A DNA stretch of 64,000 nt, taken from positions 248,001 through 312,000 of the forward strand of contig CALAJH010000001.1 of the NCBI GenBank assembly GCA_937922655.1. Reading direction: 5' to 3'. This DNA comes from an uncultured Bacteroidia bacterium (GTDB taxonomy: Bacteria > Bacteroidota > Bacteroidia > J057 > CALAJH01). Made by a program: the position numbers and the translations under genes. Under the pieces are notes generated by a model. That model did not search any database. It saw only the letters and a list, made by a program, of their open reading frames with translations, and was not told the DNA's origin. Shown here piece by piece: positions 15,995-61,352 of this stretch (its first letter is position 1; each line of letters opens with the position of its first letter).

Positions 15995-16052
15995 CGGGGT
16001 ATACGTTGATATCCAACGATATATATCAATCTTGAAATTTTTATCACAAAAT

Positions 16053-19000
16053 ATGAGGTATTTAGCCGTATTATTTTTGATTTTGGGTCTTGGAGCCATG
16101 CGCGTCCACGCCCAGAATCCGACGGTAACGATATTTAGTTCGGTAAACGACGGAGGCGTTCCCGTCTTTTGCGGGGTGGGAAGCGACATCTTGGTCAGCG
16201 GCCGAATTACCCCCGTCAACGCCCAAACCCTCGGCGGCTTTTTAACCACCGAAGTGGTTTTAAGCGTCGCTTACGACGGAACCGAACAAGAGTACGACAA
16301 CCAAAATCCGTCGACGCTGCTCGTTCCCCAAATCGTGAGTTTCAACTCTTCGCTGGGAATCTTCACCTACCGTGTCTTTTTCGCCAACCACGCGGAAAAC
16401 GCCATCGTGCGTTATCGCGTCAACTACACGTTGATTACGGGCGAGGTGATTTCGGGCGAGTTCCAAACGGCGAACTACGACGTGGCCTTCGACGTGCCGG
16501 CCTTCGCCGCCTCTTTGCCGACCTGTGCCAATCCCGTCGTTTTGGACGGAACGGGAACGGCCCTACCCGCCGGTTTTCCCCTCGAAAACGTAACCTATTC
16601 CGGTCCGGGCGTGGGCGTGAACACCAACAACGAAACGGTATTCAATCCCAACGCCGCCGGCGTCGGAACCCATACCATTACTTTTGGCGGCATTTATCGC
16701 GGTTGCACGCTTTCAAAATCGATTTTGGTAACCGTTACCCAAACGCCCGCCCCCCAAATTATCGGCGCCCCTCAAACGATATGCAAGTTGGCCGAGGAAG
16801 AGGTCCGCGTCGGTCTGCGTCTAAGCCCGCTTTATATCGACGAAACCGATTCACCGTTTAGCGCGGAAATCCAAACCACCGCCGGCGTTCAACCCCTAAC
16901 GATGGAACCCATACAAAACACGGACAGCGTTTACGTAACCATTCCGCAAACCTCCAATTCGGGAACGGTGCGTTTGCGTTACCAATATTTGGCCGGCACC
17001 TGCAACGAAGAAACCACCGCCGAGTTCATCGTCAACGAGGTGGCCAACCTAAATTTGGGTATTATTTCCCCCAACGTTACCGATTTGAACGCCAATCTAT
17101 GCTACGTCGCCGGCGCCAACAACGCGCTTCGTCTCGAAGGCGTTCCGGGCGGAGGGGAATTCACCCTCGTTTCCGGCCCCAACGCCACCATCGTTCCCGC
17201 GGGCGTAGGCGTGGACTTCACCCCGTCGGCCTCGGGAACCTATCGCGTTCGCTATTCCGTTGTGAACAGCAACTGCCTGTTCTCCTTCGAACAAAATCTT
17301 CGGTACGTGGCGCCGGCATATCCCGCGATGTTCAAGAACGTCGCGGATACGACCCAGTTGTGCGTAGGCCCCGGTGAACAAACGCTGAACTTCGGTTTGT
17401 CCAATCCGGGCGACGGCAATACGGGACGTGTAATCGACCCCGACGGCGCCGAAATTCCTTACGACGGCTCGACGACGTATCAATACACCTTTGCGCTTTC
17501 GCCCGCCCGCACGATAGTTTTGGTTTACGAAGTCAATGAAACCGAAGGCTGCACCACCCGCGACACCATTCGCATCATTATTCGCAACAGCATCTTGGCC
17601 GACGTCTATTACCCGACCTTAAACAAAACGGCCGTTTCCGACACGTTCTGCAAAGACGTAAACCTACAAATTCCCTTGCAAGTTACGCCCGAAGGCGGTA
17701 CGATTACCCCGCAAATCATCAGCGGCCAACAGGTTGTAACGAACGTTAACGGTACGTGGTATTTGCGTCCGATTGTTACGGGCCAGCACGTGTTTCTGTA
17801 CAGCGGTTTCCAAGGCAACTGTCAATACAACCGCATTTTCCTTGTAACCGTCCTCGACCCCGACAACATCGGCCCGGTAACCATCAACACCGCGGGCGGT
17901 CAAACAACGTTTACAACGGCGCAAGGCGCGGTGCAATTGTTCGGTTCGCCCGCGGGCGGGGTCTTTTCCGGCCCCGGGGTATCGGGCAATACGTTCAATC
18001 CTTTGATAGCGGGCGTGGGTACGCACAACCTTACCTATACCATTACCCAAGGCGGGTGCGACGCGGCGGCCTCGATTACCGTTACCGTCAACGACGGCTC
18101 AACGTTGCCGTGCACCTCCCCCTCGAATTATAGCGCCATTCCCTCGGCCAACGGCGCAACCATCGTTTGGGACGCAGTGCCGGGCGCGCAAAGCTATCAA
18201 ATTCGCTACCGCCGCGTGGGTACGATAAGCTGGATTTTCCGCACCGTCTCCGCGAATTTCACTTCCCTTTCCATAACGGGCTTGGAGTTGAATACCGAAT
18301 ACGAATATCAAATTCGTACCAATTGTATCGGCAACGTCATTTCTCCGTTTGGTTCCGTTTCCAGCTTTGTTACGGGCGCCGGTACGGCGTGTTTGCCGCC
18401 CGCGTCTTTGACGGTAAGCAACGTTACCTCCAACTCCGCGTCGATTGGCTTTTCCGCGCCGGTCGGAGGTTCGACGCCCGCCGATTACGACGTTATCCTA
18501 CGCTTCAATTCCGGTCCGAACGCCGGCCAAATCGTTCCCAACGGTCAAATCAACATCAACGCCGGCCAATCCCTAGTTTATCAATTCACGGGCCTGGGAG
18601 CGAATACGTCGTATCGTGTCGAAATTCGCACCAACTGTTCGGACGGTTCGGCGGCGGGCGACGTACGCACCGCTACATTCACGACTTTGCCCGGCGAAAC
18701 GCCTTGTGCCGCTCCCACGGGCTTGGTCGTTACCCCGACGTCCGAAACGACGGCCAACGCCACGTGGAACGCCGTCGCCGGCGCCACCGAATACGTTTTC
18801 GACCTTAACGGCCCGGGAACCGTTGACGCTCAAGTCGGCGCCGCTAGCGCGACGCTTACCGGATTGAATCCGGGTACCACGTATGTTTTTACCGTCCGGG
18901 CGTTGTGCGACGGCACGCAGTCTCCCCTCGCCACGTTTAGCTTTACCACGCCGGGCGTCGGCGCCGTCTGCTCGGGTTTGACTCCGAACATCACCTCGAT

Positions 19001-19535
19001 TTCCTTGCAATCCACGCAAGCGACCGTGCGTTGGACAAGGATAGAAGGGGCGACAAGTTACAACCTTCAATATCGTCTGTTCGGCAGCGCCACCTACACG
19101 TCCCAAATCGTAACGGCAACGTTGGAAAACACGCAGTCGGCGGTACTGACGGGTTTAAGCCCCGCAACCCGTTACGAAGTGCGCGTTACGGCCACCTGCC
19201 CGGGCGGCAACTCGTCGCCGTCGGTAACTCGTCGCTTCCAAACGCTTTCGGGTGGCAAGGCGGGAGAAATCGAAATCACTTTCGACGACCACGTTTCGGT
19301 ATATCCGAACCCGAGCCGCGGCTTGTTCAACCTTGGCTTCAACGCCGCGTGGGAATCGCAAGCGAAAGTAGCCATTTTCGATTTGACGGGTCGCAACGTC
19401 TTTTCTCAAACTTTCGACGTCGTCGAAGGACTCAATACGGTGGAAGTGGATGCGACGGGCCTTGGCGCCGGCCTCTACGTCCTTAAATTTGATTCCGACG
19501 TTCATTCCCAAACCGTCAAAATTTCGATTCGGTAA
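16053..19535 (+). CDS. Large secreted fibronectin type III protein with T9SS sorting domain
   Basis: 1160 residues from the ATG at 16053 (an in-frame TTG 21 bases earlier is less likely because it would sit before the signal peptide). A signal peptide MRYLAVLFLILGLGAMRVHA is followed by about 660 residues of Ig-like beta modules with regularly spaced Cys. Then come four fibronectin-III domains, recognisable by starts such as CTSPSNYSAI, CLPPASLTVS, CAAPTGLVVT and CSGLTPNITS, and by internal LNTEYEYQIRTNC-type strands. The last about 80 residues form a type A T9SS domain (VSVYPNPSRGLFNL...GLYVLKFDSDVHSQTVKISIR). It is expected to be exported through the T9SS and attached or released at the surface. 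An adhesive role is an inference. A promoter lies at 15987 and a terminator follows at 19572. Confidence 0.9.
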   Translation: MRYLAVLFLILGLGAMRVHAQNPTVTIFSSVNDGGVPVFCGVGSDILVSGRITPVNAQTLGGFLTTEVVLSVAYDGTEQEYDNQNPSTLLVPQIVSFNSSLGIFTYRVFFANHAENAIVRYRVNYTLITGEVISGEFQTANYDVAFDVPAFAASLPTCANPVVLDGTGTALPAGFPLENVTYSGPGVGVNTNNETVFNPNAAGVGTHTITFGGIYRGCTLSKSILVTVTQTPAPQIIGAPQTICKLAEEEVRVGLRLSPLYIDETDSPFSAEIQTTAGVQPLTMEPIQNTDSVYVTIPQTSNSGTVRLRYQYLAGTCNEETTAEFIVNEVANLNLGIISPNVTDLNANLCYVAGANNALRLEGVPGGGEFTLVSGPNATIVPAGVGVDFTPSASGTYRVRYSVVNSNCLFSFEQNLRYVAPAYPAMFKNVADTTQLCVGPGEQTLNFGLSNPGDGNTGRVIDPDGAEIPYDGSTTYQYTFALSPARTIVLVYEVNETEGCTTRDTIRIIIRNSILADVYYPTLNKTAVSDTFCKDVNLQIPLQVTPEGGTITPQIISGQQVVTNVNGTWYLRPIVTGQHVFLYSGFQGNCQYNRIFLVTVLDPDNIGPVTINTAGGQTTFTTAQGAVQLFGSPAGGVFSGPGVSGNTFNPLIAGVGTHNLTYTITQGGCDAAASITVTVNDGSTLPCTSPSNYSAIPSANGATIVWDAVPGAQSYQIRYRRVGTISWIFRTVSANFTSLSITGLELNTEYEYQIRTNCIGNVISPFGSVSSFVTGAGTACLPPASLTVSNVTSNSASIGFSAPVGGSTPADYDVILRFNSGPNAGQIVPNGQININAGQSLVYQFTGLGANTSYRVEIRTNCSDGSAAGDVRTATFTTLPGETPCAAPTGLVVTPTSETTANATWNAVAGATEYVFDLNGPGTVDAQVGAASATLTGLNPGTTYVFTVRALCDGTQSPLATFSFTTPGVGAVCSGLTPNITSISLQSTQATVRWTRIEGATSYNLQYRLFGSATYTSQIVTATLENTQSAVLTGLSPATRYEVRVTATCPGGNSSPSVTRRFQTLSGGKAGEIEITFDDHVSVYPNPSRGLFNLGFNAAWESQAKVAIFDLTGRNVFSQTFDVVEGLNTVEVDATGLGAGLYVLKFDSDVHSQTVKISIR

Positions 19536-19609: not shown

Positions 19610-20113
19610 ATGAAAATTTGGACGATTTATTTGGCGGGAGCGTTGATTTTTTTCGGATGCGAAAAACCGCCGCGAACCGTTTCCCTCAAACCGTTTCCGC
19701 TGACGGCACAAATGGGCGAACGTTGGACGCCCGAACCGATAAAACATCCCCAAGACAGTTTGATTCAAGCGGTGGCGATAAAGTTTGAAGGCAGGAACGT
19801 TTTAAACCTCCTTGACGCAACGCGCATTCCCGAAAACATTACGCCCGATACGCTTGTCAAACGCATTGCCGCACGCAAGGGCAAACTTTTGAGAAAAGAC
19901 AGCCTCAAATACGGTTTCGGGGGAATATTCGATTTTAGCGAAAACACGGGCGCCTTCGGCATTCCGGGCGAATTTCACGCGCCGGTTTACGTGCTCAATA
20001 TCGAAGACCGTCGCTACGTCGTCGAATTCGGCCTCGAATATACGCCCGATTTGCTCGAGCCGTGCCTGAAAATCATTCGTTCGATAGCGCCCGTTCCCAA
20101 GCCTAAGCCGTAG
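19610..20113 (+). CDS. Predicted lipoprotein of unknown function
   Basis: A 167-residue protein with a lipoprotein signal (MKIWTIYLAGALIFFGC, Cys17 as acceptor). I do not recognise the mature domain. It holds segments such as DSLIQAVAIKFEGRNVLNLL and PVYVLNIEDRRYVVEFGLEY and ends in a Pro-Lys tail. The start lies only 4 bases after a perfect TAATTTTG box, right behind the terminator of the preceding gene, so it has its own promoter. Its last 11 bases overlap the 3' end of the convergent ABC transporter gene. Confidence 0.75.
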   Translation: MKIWTIYLAGALIFFGCEKPPRTVSLKPFPLTAQMGERWTPEPIKHPQDSLIQAVAIKFEGRNVLNLLDATRIPENITPDTLVKRIAARKGKLLRKDSLKYGFGGIFDFSENTGAFGIPGEFHAPVYVLNIEDRRYVVEFGLEYTPDLLEPCLKIIRSIAPVPKPKP

Positions 20114-21839
20114 CGTATTGCAAGCGGTAAAGCTTTTTGTAATGGCCGTCGAGGGCCAAAAGCGATTGATGGTTTCCCGATTCGACGATTTCACCCCGCC
20201 GCATGACCAAAATTTGGTCGGCTTTTTGAATCGTCGAAAGCCTGTGCGCAACGACCATCGAAGTGCGTCCGTTGAGAGCGACGGCAATCGCGTTTTGAAT
20301 CATGGCCTCGGATTCGGAGTCGATGTTGGCCGTCGCCTCGTCCAAAAGCAAAATTTTGGGATTGTAGACCAAAACACGCATAAAAGCCAAAATTTGCCGC
20401 TGACCGGTGGAAAGGTTGGCGCCGCGTTCGCCGACCTCGAAGCGATAGCCGCCGGGCAAACGTTCGATAAACGCGTCGGCGCCGATAAGTTCCGCCGCCC
20501 GTTTTACCCGCCCCTCGTCTATCCCGTCGTTGAACAGGGTAACGTTGTCCAATATCGTTCCCGAAAACAAAAACACGTCCTGTAAGACCAAACCCATTGC
20601 CCCACGCAATTTTTCAAGTTTTATTTTGCGGATATCCATGCCGTCGATAAGAATTTGCCCTTCGGAAAATTCGTAAAAACGCATCAGCAAATTGACAACG
20701 GTGGACTTTCCCGAGCCCGTCGCGCCAACGAACGCCGTCGTCGTCCCCGGTTCGACGACAAACGACACCCCCTTTAACACCTCTTGCCCCGCTACGTACG
20801 CGAAACGAACGTCGCGAAATTCAATTTTTGGGCAAAGAGGACGAAAGTCCTCGATTTCGCCGTCGCAAATGAACTCATGAGTGTCGAGAACGTTGAAAAT
20901 GCGCTCGCCGCTGACCAAACCCAGTTGAAGAGTGTTGAAACGGTCGGCCAACATCCGTATCGGACGAAAAAACATCGTCAAATACATAATGAAAGCCACC
21001 AACGTTCCAAAAGTGGTGTAGCCCTCCAAAACGGCCCCGCTCCCGTACCAAACCAACGCCGCGGTCGAAAGGGCGGCAATCACCTCGACCACGGGAAAAA
21101 AAACACTGTAATAAAAAACGGTGTCCAAATGAGCGTCGCGGTGGCGTGCGTTGATTTTTTCAAATTTGTCGTACTCTCTTTTCTCTTGATTGAAAATTTG
21201 TACAACGGACATTCCCGTGATGTGTTCTTGGAGAAAAGTGTTGAGTTCGGCGACGGCTTTTCTCACCCGTTGAAACGCGGCGTTGACCTTAACCTTAAAT
21301 ACGTACGTGGCCAAAACCAAAAGCGGAATGGGAATCAGGGCTACGAGCGTCAAACGAAAATCGGTATAGAACATGAGGACGAGGAGGGTCAAAAGTTGTA
21401 AAAGTTCGCCGAAAATGGATATAAACCCTTCGCTAAAAAGGGCGTTTAGGGTTTCGATGTCGGAAACGACGCGGGTTTGGAGGGCTCCGACGGGCGTTTT
21501 GTCGAAAAATTGGGGACGCAAACGAACGATGTGGTTGAACGCTTGCCTTCTCAGGTCGTCGACGACGGATTCGCCCAGTTTGTGCGACCACGAAATTTGC
21601 AGATAATTGACGAGGGTTTGCAAAACGGTCAAAATAATCATGACCACAATCCAAAACCGGACGCCGGCCACGTCGCCGGCGGACAAAGGGACGTCAAGGA
21701 CGTACTGAATAAGGTAGGGCCTTGCGGGACCCAAAAAAGAAAGCGCCAGCGTCATGAGAAATGCGGCGACGAACAAACCTTTGTACGGTTTGACGTAAGC
21801 AAAGAGCCGCCGTAAAGGGCGGGGCGGAGAGGAGGCCAA
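20103..21839 (-). CDS. ABC exporter, fused permease and ATPase (MsbA/multidrug type)
   Basis: About 578 residues from the TTG at 21839. An earlier in-frame TTG at 21869 would lie just upstream of the TATTTTTG promoter box at 21866-21859, so it is less likely. Residues up to about 310 form a six-helix exporter domain, starting with a helix near VKPYKGLFVAAFLMTL. The ATPase has Walker A GATGSGKST, signature LSTGQRQI, Walker B ILLLDEATANID and the switch His in VAHRLSTI. Such half-transporters dimerise in the inner membrane and export lipids, drugs or peptides. The substrate is not evident. It is followed downstream on the same strand by nothing close, and overlaps the convergent lipoprotein gene by 11 bases. 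Confidence 0.92.
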   Translation of the reverse strand: MASSPPRPLRRLFAYVKPYKGLFVAAFLMTLALSFLGPARPYLIQYVLDVPLSAGDVAGVRFWIVVMIILTVLQTLVNYLQISWSHKLGESVVDDLRRQAFNHIVRLRPQFFDKTPVGALQTRVVSDIETLNALFSEGFISIFGELLQLLTLLVLMFYTDFRLTLVALIPIPLLVLATYVFKVKVNAAFQRVRKAVAELNTFLQEHITGMSVVQIFNQEKREYDKFEKINARHRDAHLDTVFYYSVFFPVVEVIAALSTAALVWYGSGAVLEGYTTFGTLVAFIMYLTMFFRPIRMLADRFNTLQLGLVSGERIFNVLDTHEFICDGEIEDFRPLCPKIEFRDVRFAYVAGQEVLKGVSFVVEPGTTTAFVGATGSGKSTVVNLLMRFYEFSEGQILIDGMDIRKIKLEKLRGAMGLVLQDVFLFSGTILDNVTLFNDGIDEGRVKRAAELIGADAFIERLPGGYRFEVGERGANLSTGQRQILAFMRVLVYNPKILLLDEATANIDSESEAMIQNAIAVALNGRTSMVVAHRLSTIQKADQILVMRRGEIVESGNHQSLLALDGHYKKLYRLQYATA

Positions 21840-21858
21840 AACGGAGTTAAGTTTTCGG

Positions 21859-21866
21859 CAAAAATA
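21859..21866 (-). promoter_or_regulatory. -7 box TATTTTTG of the ABC exporter
   Basis: Lies 19 bases before TTG 21839 and rules out the upstream TTG as start if used. Confidence 0.55.
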
Positions 21867-21872
21867 CAAAAG

Positions 21873-24071
21873 TTATCGCAGGTTTCGGAAGGCGTCGACG
21901 AGTTCGCGCGCTCCGGCAAAGTCGGCACGGACGAATGCGGCGGGCGAACCGTAGGGCGCTTCCACCACGTGTTTGCCTTCATGGAATCGTTGTCCCGTAA
22001 AAAGATGTATCCAAGCCGTTTGGGGCGGAAAAAGCGCCTCCACCTCTTGCGCCCCTTTTTTCAACACGGGCGCGACCATGACGTATTCGCCCAAAAGAAA
22101 CTGGGACGTCAAATGATGCGCCGCCGACCATTCGGGATAATGAAAATACAAGGGACGGACGGCGGGCCAACCGTTTTCCGCCGCCTCGTCGCACACCCGG
22201 CGCAAATAAGGCGCAAAAATTTTACGGATTTTGCCCATGCGTTCGGTGAAGGCGACGGTTTCGTCGTCGGTGTAAGGCTGGACGTTTTTTTCGGGTTTGA
22301 GTCCTTCGTGAGTGCGAAAAACGGGGGTGAAGACCGCCCATTCCGCCCAACGATAATACACCTCTTGGGTACGGCGGATGTTCAGGCCCAAAACATTGAC
22401 GTTGGTGTAACCGCCGACGTCGGCGTGGCACAGGGCGAATCCCGAAATTCCGGCGGAAAGCATGCCCGTGAGCGCCGAGGGCATGCCGTCGTGTTTTCCG
22501 AAGTCGGGGGTTTGGTCGCCCATCCAAAACAAGGGCGCGTATTTGGGCGAATGGGTAAAGCCCGAACGACAAAAAAACAGGGCTTCGGGCGCGGCTTCGC
22601 GATTGATTTTCGCCCATTCGACGGGATAACGATTGTGAACGCTCCAGCCTTCGCTTGCGTCGTGAAGCCGGGCGTCGAGCGGCAACCATTCGCCAAAATC
22701 CGCCATCCACCCCGAAAACCCCGTTTCCCACAAATTTTTTTGTATCGTTTCTTTTAAGAACGTTTGGGTTTTGGGATGAGTGAAGTCGTTGAGGAACGCG
22801 TTGAACCCGCCGGCTTTAAGTTTGTAGGCTTCGCCCTTCCAGTTTTTGACCAATCGCCCGTCGCGGATGGCGGCCTGCGCCATCGGCGTGTTTTCGGCCA
22901 AAAACGGATTGATATACCCGAGGACTTTAACGTTTTTTTCGTTCATGAGCCGACAAAACCCTTTGAGGTCGGGATAAAGCCGGGGGTCGGCTTCCCAATT
23001 CCAACGCAAACGGGCGCCGAATTGGGTGTCTTTTCTTCCGACCCAATCCTGAATCCAAAGGGCGGAAACGTTCGCGCCGGCCAAACGTTCGTAGAGGGCT
23101 TTAACGCGCTCGCCGCCGCCCTGAACCCCCAGCCATATTCCGAAAGCCCAATCGGGCAGCTTGGGGGGCCGGCCGACATGGGCGGTGTACTTTTGGGTTA
23201 AATCGGCGGGAGTGGGCGCGGTCCAAATTCTCAAAGTGAATTCGTGGTTCCAAACGTCGAGAACGGGTCGTTCGGGACGGCGAAGGTCGAAATACAAGGG
23301 TTCGGCACATTCGAGCAAAAGGCCGCGCTTGAACCCCGGACGGTCGGCTATCAGATAAGGAACGGCGGCATAGGTCGAAAATTCGTCGCCCGCAATCCCC
23401 AAAAGCCTTGTGAAAAAAGAAACGGGCTTGTCGCCCCGACCCACCCCCTGCTCTTCGGTAAAAATTCTGACGTTTTTTCCCGTGAGGTTAAAATGCGAGA
23501 ATTGCGCCCCGCCGCCGAAGTATTGTTCGTTTTTTTCGCCGTTCAGAGCCAAACGCAAACGGTTGTAGTGCTTGTCGTAAACGACGACCGTCAGCCGAAG
23601 GCCGCCATCCTCCGACGATTCAATTTCCAACGAAAGTTTGGCCTGACTTTTTTGCTTGTTTTTTCGCCCGGGATTGAAGGCAAAGCCCTCAAGCACAAGG
23701 CCGAAGTTCGTTTTACGAGCGGCGGTGATTTTCGATTTTTCAAGCTTGACCACGTCCCTGTGCTTAAATTTAAAAGAGGCGTACTTGCTTTTGACGATGG
23801 TCAAATCTTCGTATACGGCCAAAAAATCCCCCTCGCAAGGTAAAATTAAAGCGGGAAGGCTGTCGCCGGCGGCAAAAACGGCGAATTTTTCGCGGTCGTA
23901 TTCCACTTTTCCCCCGGCGGACAGAGAAAAGGCAAAGTCTTTGTTCAACGACAAGGGTTGTCCGACGGCGACGTTGAAAACGGAAAAAACGAAGCCCCAA
24001 GTAAACCACGCGGTAAATGGGACAAAGATTTTGCGCAAAAGTAACGTAATTTTTGGTAAGTCTTTGCGCAA
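21873..24071 (-). CDS. Exported glycoside hydrolase family 31, probable sulfoquinovosidase
   Basis: About 732 residues from TTG 24071. A signal peptide (hydrophobic segment about 15-37) precedes a beta-sandwich and a GH31 barrel. Numbering from 24071, the nucleophile is Asp458 (WMADFGEWLP) and the acid/base Asp519 (FWMGDQ). Residues that bind the sulfonate in E. coli YihQ are all present with matching spacing: Gln341 (QDW), Arg354 and Trp357 (FGARLRWNW) and Tyr555 (DVGGYTN). This predicts cleavage of sulfoquinovosides, the sulfolipid headgroup, rather than ordinary alpha-glucosides. No sulfoglycolysis genes are in view. The start is uncertain: no ATG or GTG fits, and a TACTTTTG promoter lies at 24043-24036 within this N-terminus. 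The M43 protease gene is 46 bases upstream. Confidence 0.85.
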   Translation of the reverse strand: MRKDLPKITLLLRKIFVPFTAWFTWGFVFSVFNVAVGQPLSLNKDFAFSLSAGGKVEYDREKFAVFAAGDSLPALILPCEGDFLAVYEDLTIVKSKYASFKFKHRDVVKLEKSKITAARKTNFGLVLEGFAFNPGRKNKQKSQAKLSLEIESSEDGGLRLTVVVYDKHYNRLRLALNGEKNEQYFGGGAQFSHFNLTGKNVRIFTEEQGVGRGDKPVSFFTRLLGIAGDEFSTYAAVPYLIADRPGFKRGLLLECAEPLYFDLRRPERPVLDVWNHEFTLRIWTAPTPADLTQKYTAHVGRPPKLPDWAFGIWLGVQGGGERVKALYERLAGANVSALWIQDWVGRKDTQFGARLRWNWEADPRLYPDLKGFCRLMNEKNVKVLGYINPFLAENTPMAQAAIRDGRLVKNWKGEAYKLKAGGFNAFLNDFTHPKTQTFLKETIQKNLWETGFSGWMADFGEWLPLDARLHDASEGWSVHNRYPVEWAKINREAAPEALFFCRSGFTHSPKYAPLFWMGDQTPDFGKHDGMPSALTGMLSAGISGFALCHADVGGYTNVNVLGLNIRRTQEVYYRWAEWAVFTPVFRTHEGLKPEKNVQPYTDDETVAFTERMGKIRKIFAPYLRRVCDEAAENGWPAVRPLYFHYPEWSAAHHLTSQFLLGEYVMVAPVLKKGAQEVEALFPPQTAWIHLFTGQRFHEGKHVVEAPYGSPAAFVRADFAGARELVDAFRNLR
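24036..24043 (-). promoter_or_regulatory. Possible -7 box TACTTTTG of the GH31 gene
   Basis: Exact match within the presumed N-terminus of GH31. If used, no ATG, GTG or TTG follows before the signal peptide core, only an ATC 6 bases downstream. Confidence 0.4.
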
Positions 24072-24117
24072 ATGAGCTAAAACGGGGGTTGGAACCAAGC
24101 GGACGGAACGATTCGGG

Positions 24118-25365
24118 CTAACGGACGACAACGATTTTTTGTTTGAATATTTGTCTGTTGTTTTGAACGAGGGCGGAATAAACGCCCGTCGTGGCGTCGA
24201 AAGCCACTTGTTGTGTGCCCGTGCCCGAATATTCGCCGAAAAACCGCCCCGTAACATCAAAAATACGCATTTTCCAATCGCCTTCGGCTTCAAGGGTAAA
24301 CGTGCCGTTGCATGGCCGGGGAAATAGACGGACGACGGCGTTCGGCGCGGCTTTGTTTGCTTTTTTGCCCGTCGCACAACCGGTGGAAACAAGGTTTTCG
24401 GGCGATACGAGTTTTTTTCGGTTGGGATAGATTTCAAAGACGTTGCGCATGCGAACGGCTTGGCCCGGCGTGAAACGGTGCATGCAAGCGTCGTTGCCAT
24501 AGTTCATGTAATTGTCGTTGGCGTCGGGGCCGTCGAACGGGTATTCGGCACAGGTGTTGGCGCTGTCGCCGACGTTACATCCAAAGGCTTCGAAAAGCGA
24601 CTGGGGCGTGTCGCAAATGTTGTCGCCGAATTCGAGACAGGTCGAAGGCAACGAACCCAAACATCCCCCCTGAAACGGATGAAAAAGTCCGAGGCTGTGG
24701 CCGATTTCGTGCGTAAGGGTTCGGCCCCGGTTGTAGGGGGGCGTGAGTATGCCCGTACGTCCGAAGTTGCGGTAGGAAATGACGACGCCGTCCAATCCCG
24801 CCGGGTCTTCGGGGTAACGCGCATAGCCCAAAATCCTGTTTTCTCCTTCGCCGCCGATGGATTTAACCACCCAAATATTAAGATAGCGTTCGGGGTCCCA
24901 GCGAATCAAGGCTTTGAGTGCGGCTTCGTCGGCTTGAACGTGTTCGGCCAACGGCGATTGGGTACGGGTAATGCCCGTGGTGGGGTTGCCGTCGGGGTCA
25001 AGTTTGGCCAAACAAAATTCTATTTTGGTATCGAACCCGCGTTCACCGGCCGTACCGGCTTTGGCGCGATAATCCTCGTTCAACACCTCGACTTGGCTTA
25101 GTATTTGATTTTCCGAAACGTTGTCCTGTCCGCCCGTGTGTATCACGTGAACGACAATAGGAACGGTGATGACGGGAACATCCTCGGCTTGGGTTTTGGC
25201 GGCTTGTTGGGCCAAACGCGCCCATGCACGGTTTTTGTCCACAAAACTAGGACTTTCCGTCAAACCTTTATGAATTTCGTCAAAAATACATCGCTTCACT
25301 TGCCCCCATACGACGCCTGCCGTTAGAAAGAGAATCGTTGCGACCCAAACACCCCCCCGTTTCAT
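24118..25365 (-). CDS. Secreted M43-family zinc metalloprotease with T9SS sorting domain
   Basis: 415 residues from ATG 25365, beginning with a signal peptide ending ...GVVWG. The extended zinc motif HEIGHSLGLFH places His219, Glu220, His223 and His229, and MNYGNDAC is the Met-turn. These define the pappalysin/cytophagalysin family M43B, extracellular endoproteases common in Bacteroidota. Six or more Cys in the catalytic domain (GGCLGSLPSTCLEFGDNICD) suggest disulfides. The last about 70 residues (VVRLFPRPCNGTFTLE...IFKQKIVVVR) form a T9SS type A sorting domain, with PRPC in place of the usual PNP. An upstream in-frame TTG is possible but less likely. It lies 46 bases before the GH31 gene and may be cotranscribed with it. 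Confidence 0.92.
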   Translation of the reverse strand: MKRGGVWVATILFLTAGVVWGQVKRCIFDEIHKGLTESPSFVDKNRAWARLAQQAAKTQAEDVPVITVPIVVHVIHTGGQDNVSENQILSQVEVLNEDYRAKAGTAGERGFDTKIEFCLAKLDPDGNPTTGITRTQSPLAEHVQADEAALKALIRWDPERYLNIWVVKSIGGEGENRILGYARYPEDPAGLDGVVISYRNFGRTGILTPPYNRGRTLTHEIGHSLGLFHPFQGGCLGSLPSTCLEFGDNICDTPQSLFEAFGCNVGDSANTCAEYPFDGPDANDNYMNYGNDACMHRFTPGQAVRMRNVFEIYPNRKKLVSPENLVSTGCATGKKANKAAPNAVVRLFPRPCNGTFTLEAEGDWKMRIFDVTGRFFGEYSGTGTQQVAFDATTGVYSALVQNNRQIFKQKIVVVR

Positions 25366-25540
25366 TATCCTTTTCAAGTTCGAAACGCAAAGCTAACAAA
25401 AATCGGAATTTGCAAAACCTCGGTCTTTGCAACGCGTTCGCGGGCAAGAGAACGTCGTTTTCTAAGCGTACCGGGTCTAAAAACAACCTTTTTTTACAAA
25501 TTGATAACAATGCGTAAATTCGGGGGCGCAAAGGGCGTCT

Positions 25541-57944: not shown

Positions 57945-60900
57945 CTATTGCCGAATCAAGACGGCCGCTGCCGTACCGTATTCGGTTTGGAATTTCAAGA
58001 CATAAACGCCCGGAACGTCCAAGACAATGTCCATTTCGGCGCCGGCGCCGTTGTTTTCCCAAACCATTTTGCCCGTCGCGTCGTAAACCGTCGCCGCAAG
58101 TTTTTGAGCCGGCTTCGCCAACGACAACACAAATCGTCCGTCGAAAGACGGATTAGGATAAATTTTGTGTTCCAAACCCGCAAAAAGCGCGCGGGACGTC
58201 AAAACTTGAACTTCGACCGTGGCCACGACGCTCGAACAGCCTTGCACCACCGCGACAACGGAATACGTTCCCGCATGGTCGCCCGTAACGTTGCCGCGGG
58301 TAACGGTCGAACCTTCGGCGGAAAAACCCGCCGGTCCCGACCACAACAACATCGCCCCCGCGGGTGCGTCGGCGCTTAGGGTAAGCGTTTCTCCGCTCGA
58401 AAGCGTGATTTGCGCGTTTTGCGGCACGGGCGAAGACGGACGCGGCGTTATCGTTATCGTTACCGTATCGTAAGCGGTGGGGCCGCACCCGTTCGCCGGA
58501 CGGGCCGCCACAATATATTCTCCACTCTGAGCGGGCGTGGCGTTGGGAATCGTAGGGCCCGCAATCGACGAACTAAACGCGTTCGGCCCCGTCCATGAAA
58601 ACACCGCGCCCGGCGTTCCCGTCGCATTCAACGAAACCGTACCGCCTTCGCACACCTGGCTCGAAACCGCCGTACCATTGACGCTCACGTTTACGTTCTG
58701 ACCGATGCTTACGTTCACCGTCGCGGGAGCGCTCACGCACCCGTTGCCGTAGGCCACGACGGTATACGTTCCCGAATTTTGCGTTGTAACGTTGAAGACA
58801 ACGGCGTTGCTGTCGGAAACGGCGGCGAAACCGTTCGGCCCGTACCACAAGACGTAATCCGTTCCCGAAGGCGTTACCGCCCGAAGCGTCAAATCCTGAC
58901 CCACGCAGGCGGGTCCCGCCAACGCCGTCGGCGTTCCCAAACCCGTACATCCTCCGCCCACACCACAGCTCGACGTATGTTGTCCCAGACCCGAATACGT
59001 GTTCACGGGAAACACCTCCCATTCCAACAAGGGGTTAAACGGCGCGGAAGCGTTGCGACGACCCGATTGAACAAAAGACTTGCGACGCAAAGTTTGGTCT
59101 TTGGTGACGACGACGCCGTCCGGCCCCGCCCAGCCGTCCACGGGATTTTGTCCCGGAACGCCGAAAACGTCCAATATCACCGAATCCGTCGGGCTGTTGT
59201 ATTTGACCAACAAAACGGCGTCGTTGCCGTTGAAATTGACGGCGAAAGAATCGAGTTGATCGGCCAAATTGAGAATGTCGTTCCATGCAAAATGACGGAC
59301 GACGACATGCGTTCCCAACGGTTCTATCGTTCCTTCGAGTTGAGCGGACTTGCGTTGATTGGCCCCGCCTTGGTTGAATACGCCCCACAATTTATAGGCG
59401 GAAAGGTTTATAATTTCGGGGGTGGGGTTGTAAATTTCGATGGCTTTATTGTTGCTAAAACCTTCGAGGTATTCGGAAATGAAAAGGTCTTGACAACCGT
59501 TGGGGTCGAGGTAGGCAATCGAAACGCCGACGACGGTGTCGTTGCAACCCGCGTCCAGATGAAGCGAATAAACGCCCGAACCCGGAACCAAAACGACGAA
59601 CGGCGAATGGTTAACGGTATCGGTAATGGTTTGCCCCGATGCGGTAAGGGTGTAAACGTACGGCAGGGCGGCGCCGCCGTTGCGGGTAACGACCACGGCT
59701 CCGGGTTGGCCCGGCGAAGCCGGAATTTCTTCGACGGCAACATCAAAGTTGCAATCCCCCGTGCCGACAACGACCGTTACCGACGATACGGCCGACGTGC
59801 ATCCCGATGCAACGACGTAGGCCGAATACACGCCCGAATCAAAAACGGAAGCGTTGGGAATTTGTACGCCCGGGCCTTGCGCGGTAAAACCGTTGGGACC
59901 CGTCCAAAACACCATGCCCGGCGGTTCGTATATCGCGCTCAATTCAATGGTTCCCCCCACTTCAACGGGACTGTTGGACTCGGCCACGGGGGCGGGGATG
60001 TTGACGACGTTCACCTCGAAAGTTTGCGTACCCGCCGTACCACAAGACGGCGTAGCCGCAACCGTCCATGTACCCGATGCGGGATTGACGACGTTGATTT
60101 CGAGGCCGAAATAGGTTTGCCCCCCCGGGGCCGTCCAAACTACGTTACCCTCTCCGCCCGTAACTTGGGCCGTCAGCGCCAACGCCGTACCGGCGCAAAC
60201 GGTCGTCGAACCTTGGATTCCAACGCTCAAATTCACGGGATTGGAAACAAAAACGTCCACCGACGCGGCGGGGGTTGCACAACCGTTCACCAGTGCAAAC
60301 GCACGATAGGTTCCGCTCATTTGCGCCGTCGCGGACGGAAAATCGATTTCTTCGGGATAAACCTGTCCGTTGGGACCGACGATAATCAAATAGTCGTAGG
60401 CCAGAGAGGATTCGGCAACCATGGAAAGCGGCTGGCCAACGCATCCGCCCGAAACATTCAGTGTCGGTGCGGTTGCAAGGTTGCAATCCGTTCCCCCCCC
60501 CGACGAACAAGCCGACGAATGCATACCCAAATTCGAATAGGTGTCGATAGGCAAAACGTCCCATTCGTCAGTCGGTACGAACGTGTTGAGATTGGCCGTT
60601 CGACCTTGCGTAACCGAAGGTTTGCGAACGAGGGTACGGTCGGCGGTAACGACGGTTCCACCGGCGTCCGTCCATCCGCCCGTAGGATTTTGAAACTTAA
60701 CCCCGAACATATCGACCAAAACGCTGTCTCCGCCGGGATACTTGTAAAGAGCCACGGCGTCGTTGCCGTTAAACTGCAAGGCCGTACCCGTACCGCCGGC
60801 TTGAGTCTGTTGTGCCAGATTCAGTATTGCCTGAGTGGCTTGGGCATGGGCTACGACATGCGTTCCATAGGGGGCAATTGTTCCCGAAAGTTGGAAAACG

Positions 60901-61352
60901 CCGCCCGACGGCCCCGCATTGTAATATGTACAAATCTTGTACAACGACAAATCTATCGGCGAGGGGGTGGGGTTGTAAATTTCAATGGCTTTATTGTTGC
61001 TCGAACCTTCGATGTATTCGGAAATAAAAAGTTCGTTGCAACCGGTCGCGGCCGCCCCCAAAAAGAACGTCGTGTCCTCGGCGCAACCGTCGGCATCGGT
61101 AACGGAAACGGTATGCGTCGTACCGGAAGCCAAACCTTCAAGCCAATAACCGTCGGAAAAAGTTATTGCCGGCCCGCCGTTTAGGGAAACGAAGGTCTGC
61201 GCCGGATTTTCTTCGACAATAAACACCGCCCCCGTGGGATTTTGCGCCGACGGGCCGACAATGTAAAAAGTTGCCCACCCTCCCGGACATTGCGCCCGAA
61301 GCGATACGAACGCCGCCGTGAGCATGAACAATAAAAATACCGCTTTTTTCAT
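57945..61352 (-). CDS. Large secreted protein with two lamin-tail domains, Ig-like modules and T9SS sorting domain
   Basis: 1135 residues. A signal peptide (MKKAVFLLFMLTAAFVSLRA) precedes an N-terminal beta module, then a lamin-tail (LTD) domain at about 106-280 (ELFISEYIEGSSNNKAIEIY), Ig-like modules, a second LTD at about 620-795 (DLFISEYLEGFSNNKAIEIY), more Ig-like modules with single Cys pairs, and a C-terminal type A T9SS domain (HKIYPNPSFDGRFVLSLAKP...GVYVLKFQ). LTD domains occur in secreted or surface proteins of bacteria, sometimes with nucleases, but no nuclease domain is seen. The role is probably adhesive or structural. A TAAATTTG box lies 16 bases before the ATG and a hairpin terminator follows the stop. 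Confidence 0.9.
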   Translation of the reverse strand: MKKAVFLLFMLTAAFVSLRAQCPGGWATFYIVGPSAQNPTGAVFIVEENPAQTFVSLNGGPAITFSDGYWLEGLASGTTHTVSVTDADGCAEDTTFFLGAAATGCNELFISEYIEGSSNNKAIEIYNPTPSPIDLSLYKICTYYNAGPSGGVFQLSGTIAPYGTHVVAHAQATQAILNLAQQTQAGGTGTALQFNGNDAVALYKYPGGDSVLVDMFGVKFQNPTGGWTDAGGTVVTADRTLVRKPSVTQGRTANLNTFVPTDEWDVLPIDTYSNLGMHSSACSSGGGTDCNLATAPTLNVSGGCVGQPLSMVAESSLAYDYLIIVGPNGQVYPEEIDFPSATAQMSGTYRAFALVNGCATPAASVDVFVSNPVNLSVGIQGSTTVCAGTALALTAQVTGGEGNVVWTAPGGQTYFGLEINVVNPASGTWTVAATPSCGTAGTQTFEVNVVNIPAPVAESNSPVEVGGTIELSAIYEPPGMVFWTGPNGFTAQGPGVQIPNASVFDSGVYSAYVVASGCTSAVSSVTVVVGTGDCNFDVAVEEIPASPGQPGAVVVTRNGGAALPYVYTLTASGQTITDTVNHSPFVVLVPGSGVYSLHLDAGCNDTVVGVSIAYLDPNGCQDLFISEYLEGFSNNKAIEIYNPTPEIINLSAYKLWGVFNQGGANQRKSAQLEGTIEPLGTHVVVRHFAWNDILNLADQLDSFAVNFNGNDAVLLVKYNSPTDSVILDVFGVPGQNPVDGWAGPDGVVVTKDQTLRRKSFVQSGRRNASAPFNPLLEWEVFPVNTYSGLGQHTSSCGVGGGCTGLGTPTALAGPACVGQDLTLRAVTPSGTDYVLWYGPNGFAAVSDSNAVVFNVTTQNSGTYTVVAYGNGCVSAPATVNVSIGQNVNVSVNGTAVSSQVCEGGTVSLNATGTPGAVFSWTGPNAFSSSIAGPTIPNATPAQSGEYIVAARPANGCGPTAYDTVTITITPRPSSPVPQNAQITLSSGETLTLSADAPAGAMLLWSGPAGFSAEGSTVTRGNVTGDHAGTYSVVAVVQGCSSVVATVEVQVLTSRALFAGLEHKIYPNPSFDGRFVLSLAKPAQKLAATVYDATGKMVWENNGAGAEMDIVLDVPGVYVLKFQTEYGTAAAVLIRQ

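Follow-up and report, generated by a model that had tools for sequence, protein, structure and literature searches.

The window analysed here is a stretch of 64,000 nucleotides from an uncultured Bacteroidia bacterium (GenBank assembly GCA_937922655.1, contig CALAJH010000001.1, positions 248,001 to 312,000 of the forward strand; coordinates below count from its first letter). On its minus strand it encodes a protein of glycoside hydrolase family 31 (GH31) that carries the active-site residues of YihQ-type sulfoquinovosidases (SQases), that probably has a signal peptide, and that lies outside the clade of known SQases. An earlier note, made from the sequence alone, placed the gene at 21873..24071 (-), with a TTG start at 24071 and a product of 732 aa. 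The mechanically called open reading frame (ORF) covers 21873-24500 (-); the 732 codons are counted from TTG 24071, and the part above 24071 (to 24500) overlaps the upstream M43 protease gene in another frame. The ORF is genuine, and its translation from 24071 contains no Met before the catalytic domain. In the host genome (3.58 Mb in 84 contigs) there is a single match to the GH31 barrel (PF01055).

The residues of the protein were compared by alignment with E. coli K-12 YihQ. Six positions of YihQ have the same residue in the window protein: Q288 (Q341, codon 23049..23051), R301 (the sulfonate-binding Arg, R354, codon CGT at 23010..23012), W304 (W357, 23001..23003), D405 (the nucleophile D458, 22698..22700), D472 (the acid/base D519, 22515..22517), and Y508 (Y555, 22407..22409). 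A seventh match between Q262 and Q317 (23121..23123) brings the full catalytic and sulfonate-pocket set to seven, with all codons on the minus strand. In YihQ-type SQases the sulfonate pocket is made up of Q262, Q288, R301, W304, and Y508, or of the K/E variant in SmoI. The Gln, Arg, Trp, and Tyr residues to which the earlier note drew attention are aligned as it had claimed (Q341, R354, W357, and Y555 with Q288, R301, W304, and Y508), the spacings of 13, 3, 101, and 36 residues are identical to those in YihQ, and the observation is thus confirmed. A chance match was rejected on the grounds of 37% identity across YihQ 89-668 and an unambiguous alignment of the motifs. Nor is the residue set trivial, because Gln replaces the Arg in 23 of 40 rows of the sister clade described below.

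Both PF01055 and PF21365 score above their cut-offs in the protein. A sequence search against the Protein Data Bank returned YihQ first with 397 bits, followed by SmoI, the E. rectale enzyme, and 8r56, all with at least 384 bits, and YicI with 139 bits. The NCBIfam model NF007746 (PRK10426) was passed with 663 bits against a cut-off of 553. Among ten relatives, designated here by L numbers, the same model passed both Arg rows and all four Gln rows (L021, L032, L040, and L045, at 626-832); the Asp row L047 also passed, at 579, whereas L050 (Gly), L070, and L081 were below the cut-off. Since Gln and Asp rows are passed, the score is no proof of SQase specificity.

An AlphaFold2 model of the protein, calculated with 40 rows, had a mean predicted local distance difference test score (pLDDT) of 93.2 and a predicted template modelling score of 0.91. 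In Foldseek the top 23 chains were all YihQ/SQase entries (E 1.1e-79 to 1.4e-72), with the next chain at 5.4e-49. With VIA-align, the model superposed on nine SQase entries with Z 52.0-53.6 over 648-659 residues at 32-33% identity, the value for 5aee being 53.6, and the next GH31 structure, an alpha-xylosidase, followed at Z 40.3. The superposition on YihQ that the earlier note had proposed as a check came out in favour of the SQase fold. A common fold does not by itself establish the substrate.

Relatives were collected as the best 80 of 90 from named GTDB genomes, together with relatives from further genomes, those of the class among them. GH31 matches were found in 18 of 100 related genomes at E 1e-30, the host's own included, seven of these genomes having distant GH31s alone (E > 1e-50), and, at E 1e-80, in 17 of the 395 genomes examined from the class, again with the host; the gene is therefore patchy in the class. 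When YihQ was the query against 395 genomes of the phylum, two matched at E < 1e-70, the host's own and L118 (30%). Five exact duplicates were removed from 100 ORFs, and L058, L062, and L072 were dropped as fragments. A first tree comprised 96 rows, without L016, L017, L019, L052, L053, L093, and L095. A second tree was built from 55 of 59 aligned rows, without L114, L048, L111, and L034, and with the motif columns removed.

Nine SQase rows entered the 55-row tree: four with solved structures, three from annotated operons (Salmonella yih, and Shinella and Microvirga, which by our reading are sulfo-Entner-Doudoroff (sulfo-ED)-like), and two unannotated plasmid homologues. They form a clade of their own with support of 100/100, joined at 100/99 by the Treponema Gln row L045, and the window protein is outside it. 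The window protein belongs to the sister clade, supported at 100/99, whose 37 rows come from Bacteroidota, Leptospiraceae, other Spirochaetes, and Bacteriovoracales, and the 96-row tree agrees with this placement. The phylogenetic check that the earlier note had proposed thus came out against its reading. Placement inside the SQase clade was rejected in an approximately unbiased test (log-likelihood lower by 77.5, p-AU 1.4e-5, with the window protein and the nine SQase rows held together and L045 outside), although nine SQase rows are a thin sample and both groups were named after the first tree. Within the sister clade, the 96-row tree sets the window protein beside the Arg rows L031 and L043 (SH-aLRT 89, not starred), and the 55-row tree leaves its place open; the branch of the window row is long (1.37), six rows exceed 1.5, and the deep order is mostly open. 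In still deeper rows, which come from Riflebacteria, Wallbacteria, many Myxococcota, and other groups, Asp or Gly mostly stands in place of the Arg and Tyr in place of the Trp. In PMC13219744, YihQ SQases are defined as one monophyletic orthologous clade. The window protein lies outside that clade and was therefore not filed as a YihQ SQase; judged from residues and fold it would work like one, and "SQase" is a reasonable prediction from residues and not a clade assignment.

The position corresponding to YihQ 301 differs among the relatives of the protein. Of the 40 aligned rows of the sister clade, 17 have Arg there and 23 have Gln, within a surrounding motif that is nearly constant, QDW...G-x-R/Q-L-x-W. 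Several groups of the 55-row tree contain both residues: L003 (Arg) with L021 (Gln) at 98/88, L010 and L011 (Arg) with L041 and L044 (Gln) at 96/86, the pair L024 and L055 (Arg) with ten Gln rows from Spirochaetes at 98/94, and the SQases (Arg) with L045 (Gln) at 100/99. A minimum of ten changes over all five states at the site is needed on this tree, and a single clade of the 16 exported Arg rows was rejected (p-AU 0.0045). The key Arg has switched several times in the sister branch, and at each change either Arg or Gln may have been gained.

An exported alpha-glucosidase or other neutral alpha-glycosidase, in which site 301 is loosely constrained and the Arg uninformative on sulfonate, is the chief alternative to an SQase. 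This is what the alternation of Arg and Gln between supported sister rows in a nearly constant motif would favour, as would the lack of any searched pathway gene in the host (see below) and the surroundings of L045, the Gln relative next to the SQases, whose locus also holds a GH31 fragment, an MFS_2 sugar transporter, and a GH13 that carries a glucodextranase-type module. The L045 context, however, is a single locus, and the Arg looks maintained. Its codons in the 17 rows are CGT, CGC, CGA, AGA, and AGG, five of the six possible, and the near neighbours L008 (AGA) and L009 (CGT) differ synonymously; it is therefore the residue and not the codon that is kept, which looks like selection for Arg in the Arg lineages as far as the sequences indicate. 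The Arg also goes with Gly at YihQ column 368, which all nine SQase rows have, as do 15 of the 17 exported Arg rows, compared to 2 of 24 Gln rows; this column, which may lie outside the pocket, was chosen post hoc because it fitted best among all columns, and relatedness contributes to the counts. Furthermore, two YicI rows have Asp at the 288 position, where the sister clade keeps Gln. Taken together, a neutral glycosidase appears rather unlikely.

The hydrophobic N-terminal segment that the earlier note described is present. The best start, preferred over 24071, is TTG 24038 (residue 12), from which the peak 11-residue Kyte-Doolittle mean is 2.03, and a probable signal peptide spans 23961..24038 (-), residues 12-37, with a cut before Q38 by our reading. 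In the structural model a helix at residues 2-23 (pLDDT about 75) precedes the folded domain. An N-terminus was counted as export-type when the peak 11-residue hydropathy was at least 1.9 after any ATG, GTG, or TTG before the domain, a threshold chosen after the N-termini had been viewed and a rule that favours long open frames (the window frame has 14 starts, the control frames 1-2). The rule assigns an export-type N-terminus to 37 of the 40 rows in the sister clade, with L040 and L112 being the same protein counted twice, and to none of five controls (YihQ, L045, and the SQases from three operons); L023 (1.83), L113 (1.55), and L114 (1.61) fall below the threshold. The separate sister clade with its export-type N-termini is an observed feature, as are the residues and the fold. 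Among the rows that pass, L028 (1.97) alone scores lower than the window protein (2.03), whose own export is what we infer from the segment.

Many of the Spirochaete rows look lipoprotein-like by eye, although the lipobox pattern of the script, too narrow for several of them, marked 9 of 40. The window protein has no lipobox by this narrow pattern and no tail of the type IX secretion system (T9SS; Por_Secre_tail) by Pfam, whereas two of 20 other window proteins carry such a tail. Because neither was found, the periplasm is the most likely location, as predicted from the sequence. The earlier suggestion that SQ (sulfoquinovose) is released outside the cytoplasm therefore stands as regards likely export, most likely to the periplasm, but not as regards membership in the SQase clade.

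No sulfoglycolysis genes were recognised among 20 window proteins in a Pfam scan, which agrees with the earlier note on the neighbourhood of the gene. None of 15 gene-bearing genomes, the host included, yielded a match to YihT, YihS, the sulfo-ED aldolase, or DUF4867. The YihT query matched its control, a Salmonella plasmid record, and not the host, whereas the negatives for the single YihS query, DUF4867, and the aldolase are weak because these queries had no positive control. PF07221 (the YihS family) gave no match above cut-off in the 15 genomes and one below it, in genome G226; in controls it matched 2 of 14 genomes, E. coli not among them. The negatives for the host thus cover YihT, YihS, PF07221, the sulfo-ED aldolase, and DUF4867, the sulfo-SMO (monooxygenase), sulfo-SDO (dioxygenase), sulfo-TK (transketolase), and transaldolase routes not having been searched.

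Our preferred interpretation, held with moderate confidence, is a periplasmic SQase-like retaining alpha-glycosidase with sulfoquinovosyl glycerol or a similar compound as predicted substrate. In such an enzyme D458 would attack C1 of the alpha-sulfoquinovoside and D519 would protonate the leaving group, after which the glycosyl-enzyme would be hydrolysed. R354, W357, and Y555 would grip the C6 sulfonate in the manner of their YihQ counterparts, while Q317 and Q341 would complete the pocket. The likely substrate would be sulfoquinovosyl glycerol, or sulfolipid that reaches the periplasm. Because none of the searched sulfoglycolysis genes was found in the host, we infer that it may use the freed glycerol or lipid part, or leave the SQ to others. 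The protein is accordingly a good candidate for freeing SQ outside the cytoplasm, and the earlier interpretation is supported in part: residues, spacing, fold, and likely export speak for an SQase, whereas the clade (p-AU 1.4e-5) and the Gln in 23 of 40 sister rows do not.

The same pocket could serve in the hydrolysis of a different alpha-sugar with an anionic group at C6, such as algal alpha-glucuronosyl diacylglycerol or a 6-sulfated or 6-phosphated sugar, with the Arg binding carboxylate, sulfate, or phosphate. Arg, Trp, and Tyr together may well bind other anions, microalgal glucuronide lipids are reported in PMC11771548, and the lack of the searched SQ pathway genes would fit here as well. 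Nevertheless, the protein has the complete residue set of the SQases with SQ-type ligands (the best structural matches include 5oht, 6pnr, and 8r56), nothing in the analysis points to another anion, and a different anionic substrate is therefore considered improbable.

Several observations weigh against a periplasmic SQase. The window protein lies outside the clade of known SQases, and its nearest rows by path include the Gln rows L021 and L027. With a single GH31 in the host and none of the searched sulfoglycolysis genes, there is no pathway context for the substrate. A conserved neighbour linking the gene to SQ was not recognised in the ORF clusters of 80 loci and the window surroundings, 24 of the loci being inspected by eye; ORF clusters besides GH31 are common to up to 12 loci, and not all of them were identified. 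The signal of the window protein depends on a non-ATG start, TTG 24038, which is overlapped by a promoter-like box, TACTTTTG, at 24043-24036 (-), and the codon-position composition around the start is not decisive. The box corresponds to TAnnTTTG, the Bacteroidota -7 type consensus, and would place the transcript start beyond TTG 24038. In that case the protein would be cytoplasmic, transcribed after the TACTTTTG box and translated from a TTG near 23955 with the hydrophobic stretch untranslated, a possibility to which the lack of a Met before the domain also lends itself. By our count, however, the -7-type box has no good partner at the usual spacing, the frame there encodes a signal sequence of typical form, and in most relatives an ATG-initiated signal occupies this position, so a cytoplasmic protein seems very unlikely.

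Compared to known systems, the protein is closest to the YihQ-type GH31 SQases (E. coli YihQ, A. tumefaciens SmoI, E. rectale SftG, and BmSQase), with which it shares a near-full-chain fold, both catalytic Asp residues, and all pocket residues. It differs from them in its place outside their clade, its signal-type N-terminus, and a host without the searched sulfoglycolysis genes. The YihQ-like proteins of the sister clade (Leptospiraceae, other Spirochaetes, Bacteroidota, and Bacteriovoracales) have the clade and motif in common with the window protein, whereas Gln takes the place of Arg in 23 of 40 rows and many Spirochaete rows are lipoprotein-like by eye; we know of no activity for any member. 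YicI-type alpha-xylosidases and other GH31 glucosidases share the fold and the catalytic Asp pair, but YicI scores 139 versus 397 bits, and the two YicI rows with Asp at the 288 position have no Arg/Trp pair. GH188 SqgA, whose fold differs from that of GH31, catalyses the same net reaction, SQ release from glycosides, by a different mechanism. It is described in PMC10755693 as an NAD-dependent sulfoquinovosidase with an oxidoreductive mechanism and an Arg in the sulfonate site.

In the open-access literature, as far as its text was available, no account of exported GH31 SQases, of an exported SQase-like GH31 clade, or of an Arg-to-Gln variant was found among the matches listed. A broader scenario, which we put forward tentatively and consider doubtful as a whole, is that SQ specificity arose or was lost several times in a hitherto unrecognised, exported sister clade of the YihQ SQases through Gln/Arg exchange at 301, with Arg members in Bacteroidota and Bacteriovoracales freeing SQ in the periplasm or outside, some of them without sulfoglycolysis of their own and supplying other bacteria. 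PMC10755693 puts SQ production at about ten billion tons per year, and PMC13219744 suggests yihQ as a marker gene by which SQ degraders may be recognised. If the Arg-type proteins are SQases, bacteria that lack a known SQ pathway can set the sugar free, a point of relevance to cross-feeding. Otherwise, degraders could be over-counted in surveys that tally YihQ-family hits by whole-protein score. NF007746, an "equivalog" named "alpha-glucosidase", is an annotation hazard, and family-level yihQ counts may include non-SQases. The Arg/Gln pairs represent a natural experiment on the evolution of sulfonate recognition.

The neighbours of the GH31 gene in the window are housekeeping and envelope genes, namely an ABC (ATP-binding cassette) transporter, an M43 protease, a TonB-dependent receptor, gyrase A, and enolase. 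The ABC transporter ORF (20103..21869 (-), mechanical start) lies 3 bases past the GH31 stop and is possibly co-transcribed with it, with no demonstrated connection to SQ. Upstream, the M43 metalloprotease gene (24118..25377 (-)) is separated from the TTG at 24071 by 46 bases. Two large proteins, at 57945-61352 (-) and 16032-19535 (+), have lamin-tail/Ig or fibronectin III domains and T9SS tails.

Among the relatives, two Bacteriovoracales loci (L024:8219-11711 and L055:8362-11938) have an exported GH1 that overlaps the start of the Arg-type GH31; as a guess, a GH1 beta-glycosidase paired with an SQase would suit thylakoid glycolipid breakdown. MFS_2 and a second MFS (major facilitator superfamily) gene precede the Gln-type GH31 in L029:7081-12073 (Leptospiraceae) and L072:3472-7654 (an uncultured bacterium). 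These GH1 and MFS_2/MFS contexts, with two loci each, are too few for an argument. In the Treponema locus L045:3-6631, a C-terminal fragment of a GH31 accompanies a complete Gln-type GH31 that has no signal and the MFS_2 transporter, with the GH13 and its glucodextranase-type C-terminal module on the other strand of the contig. In a small genome of genus g60, the GH31 relative L115 (G164:C23:15707-17077) is broken by four stops (one TGA and three TAG), whereas two congeners (G193 and G271) have matches free of stops. Finally, two rows carry MAG (metagenome-assembled genome) titles that look doubtful: L063, titled "Klebsiella pneumoniae", groups with Myxococcota-type rows, and L084, titled "Brachyspira murdochii", groups with an uncultured Spirochaetales row.

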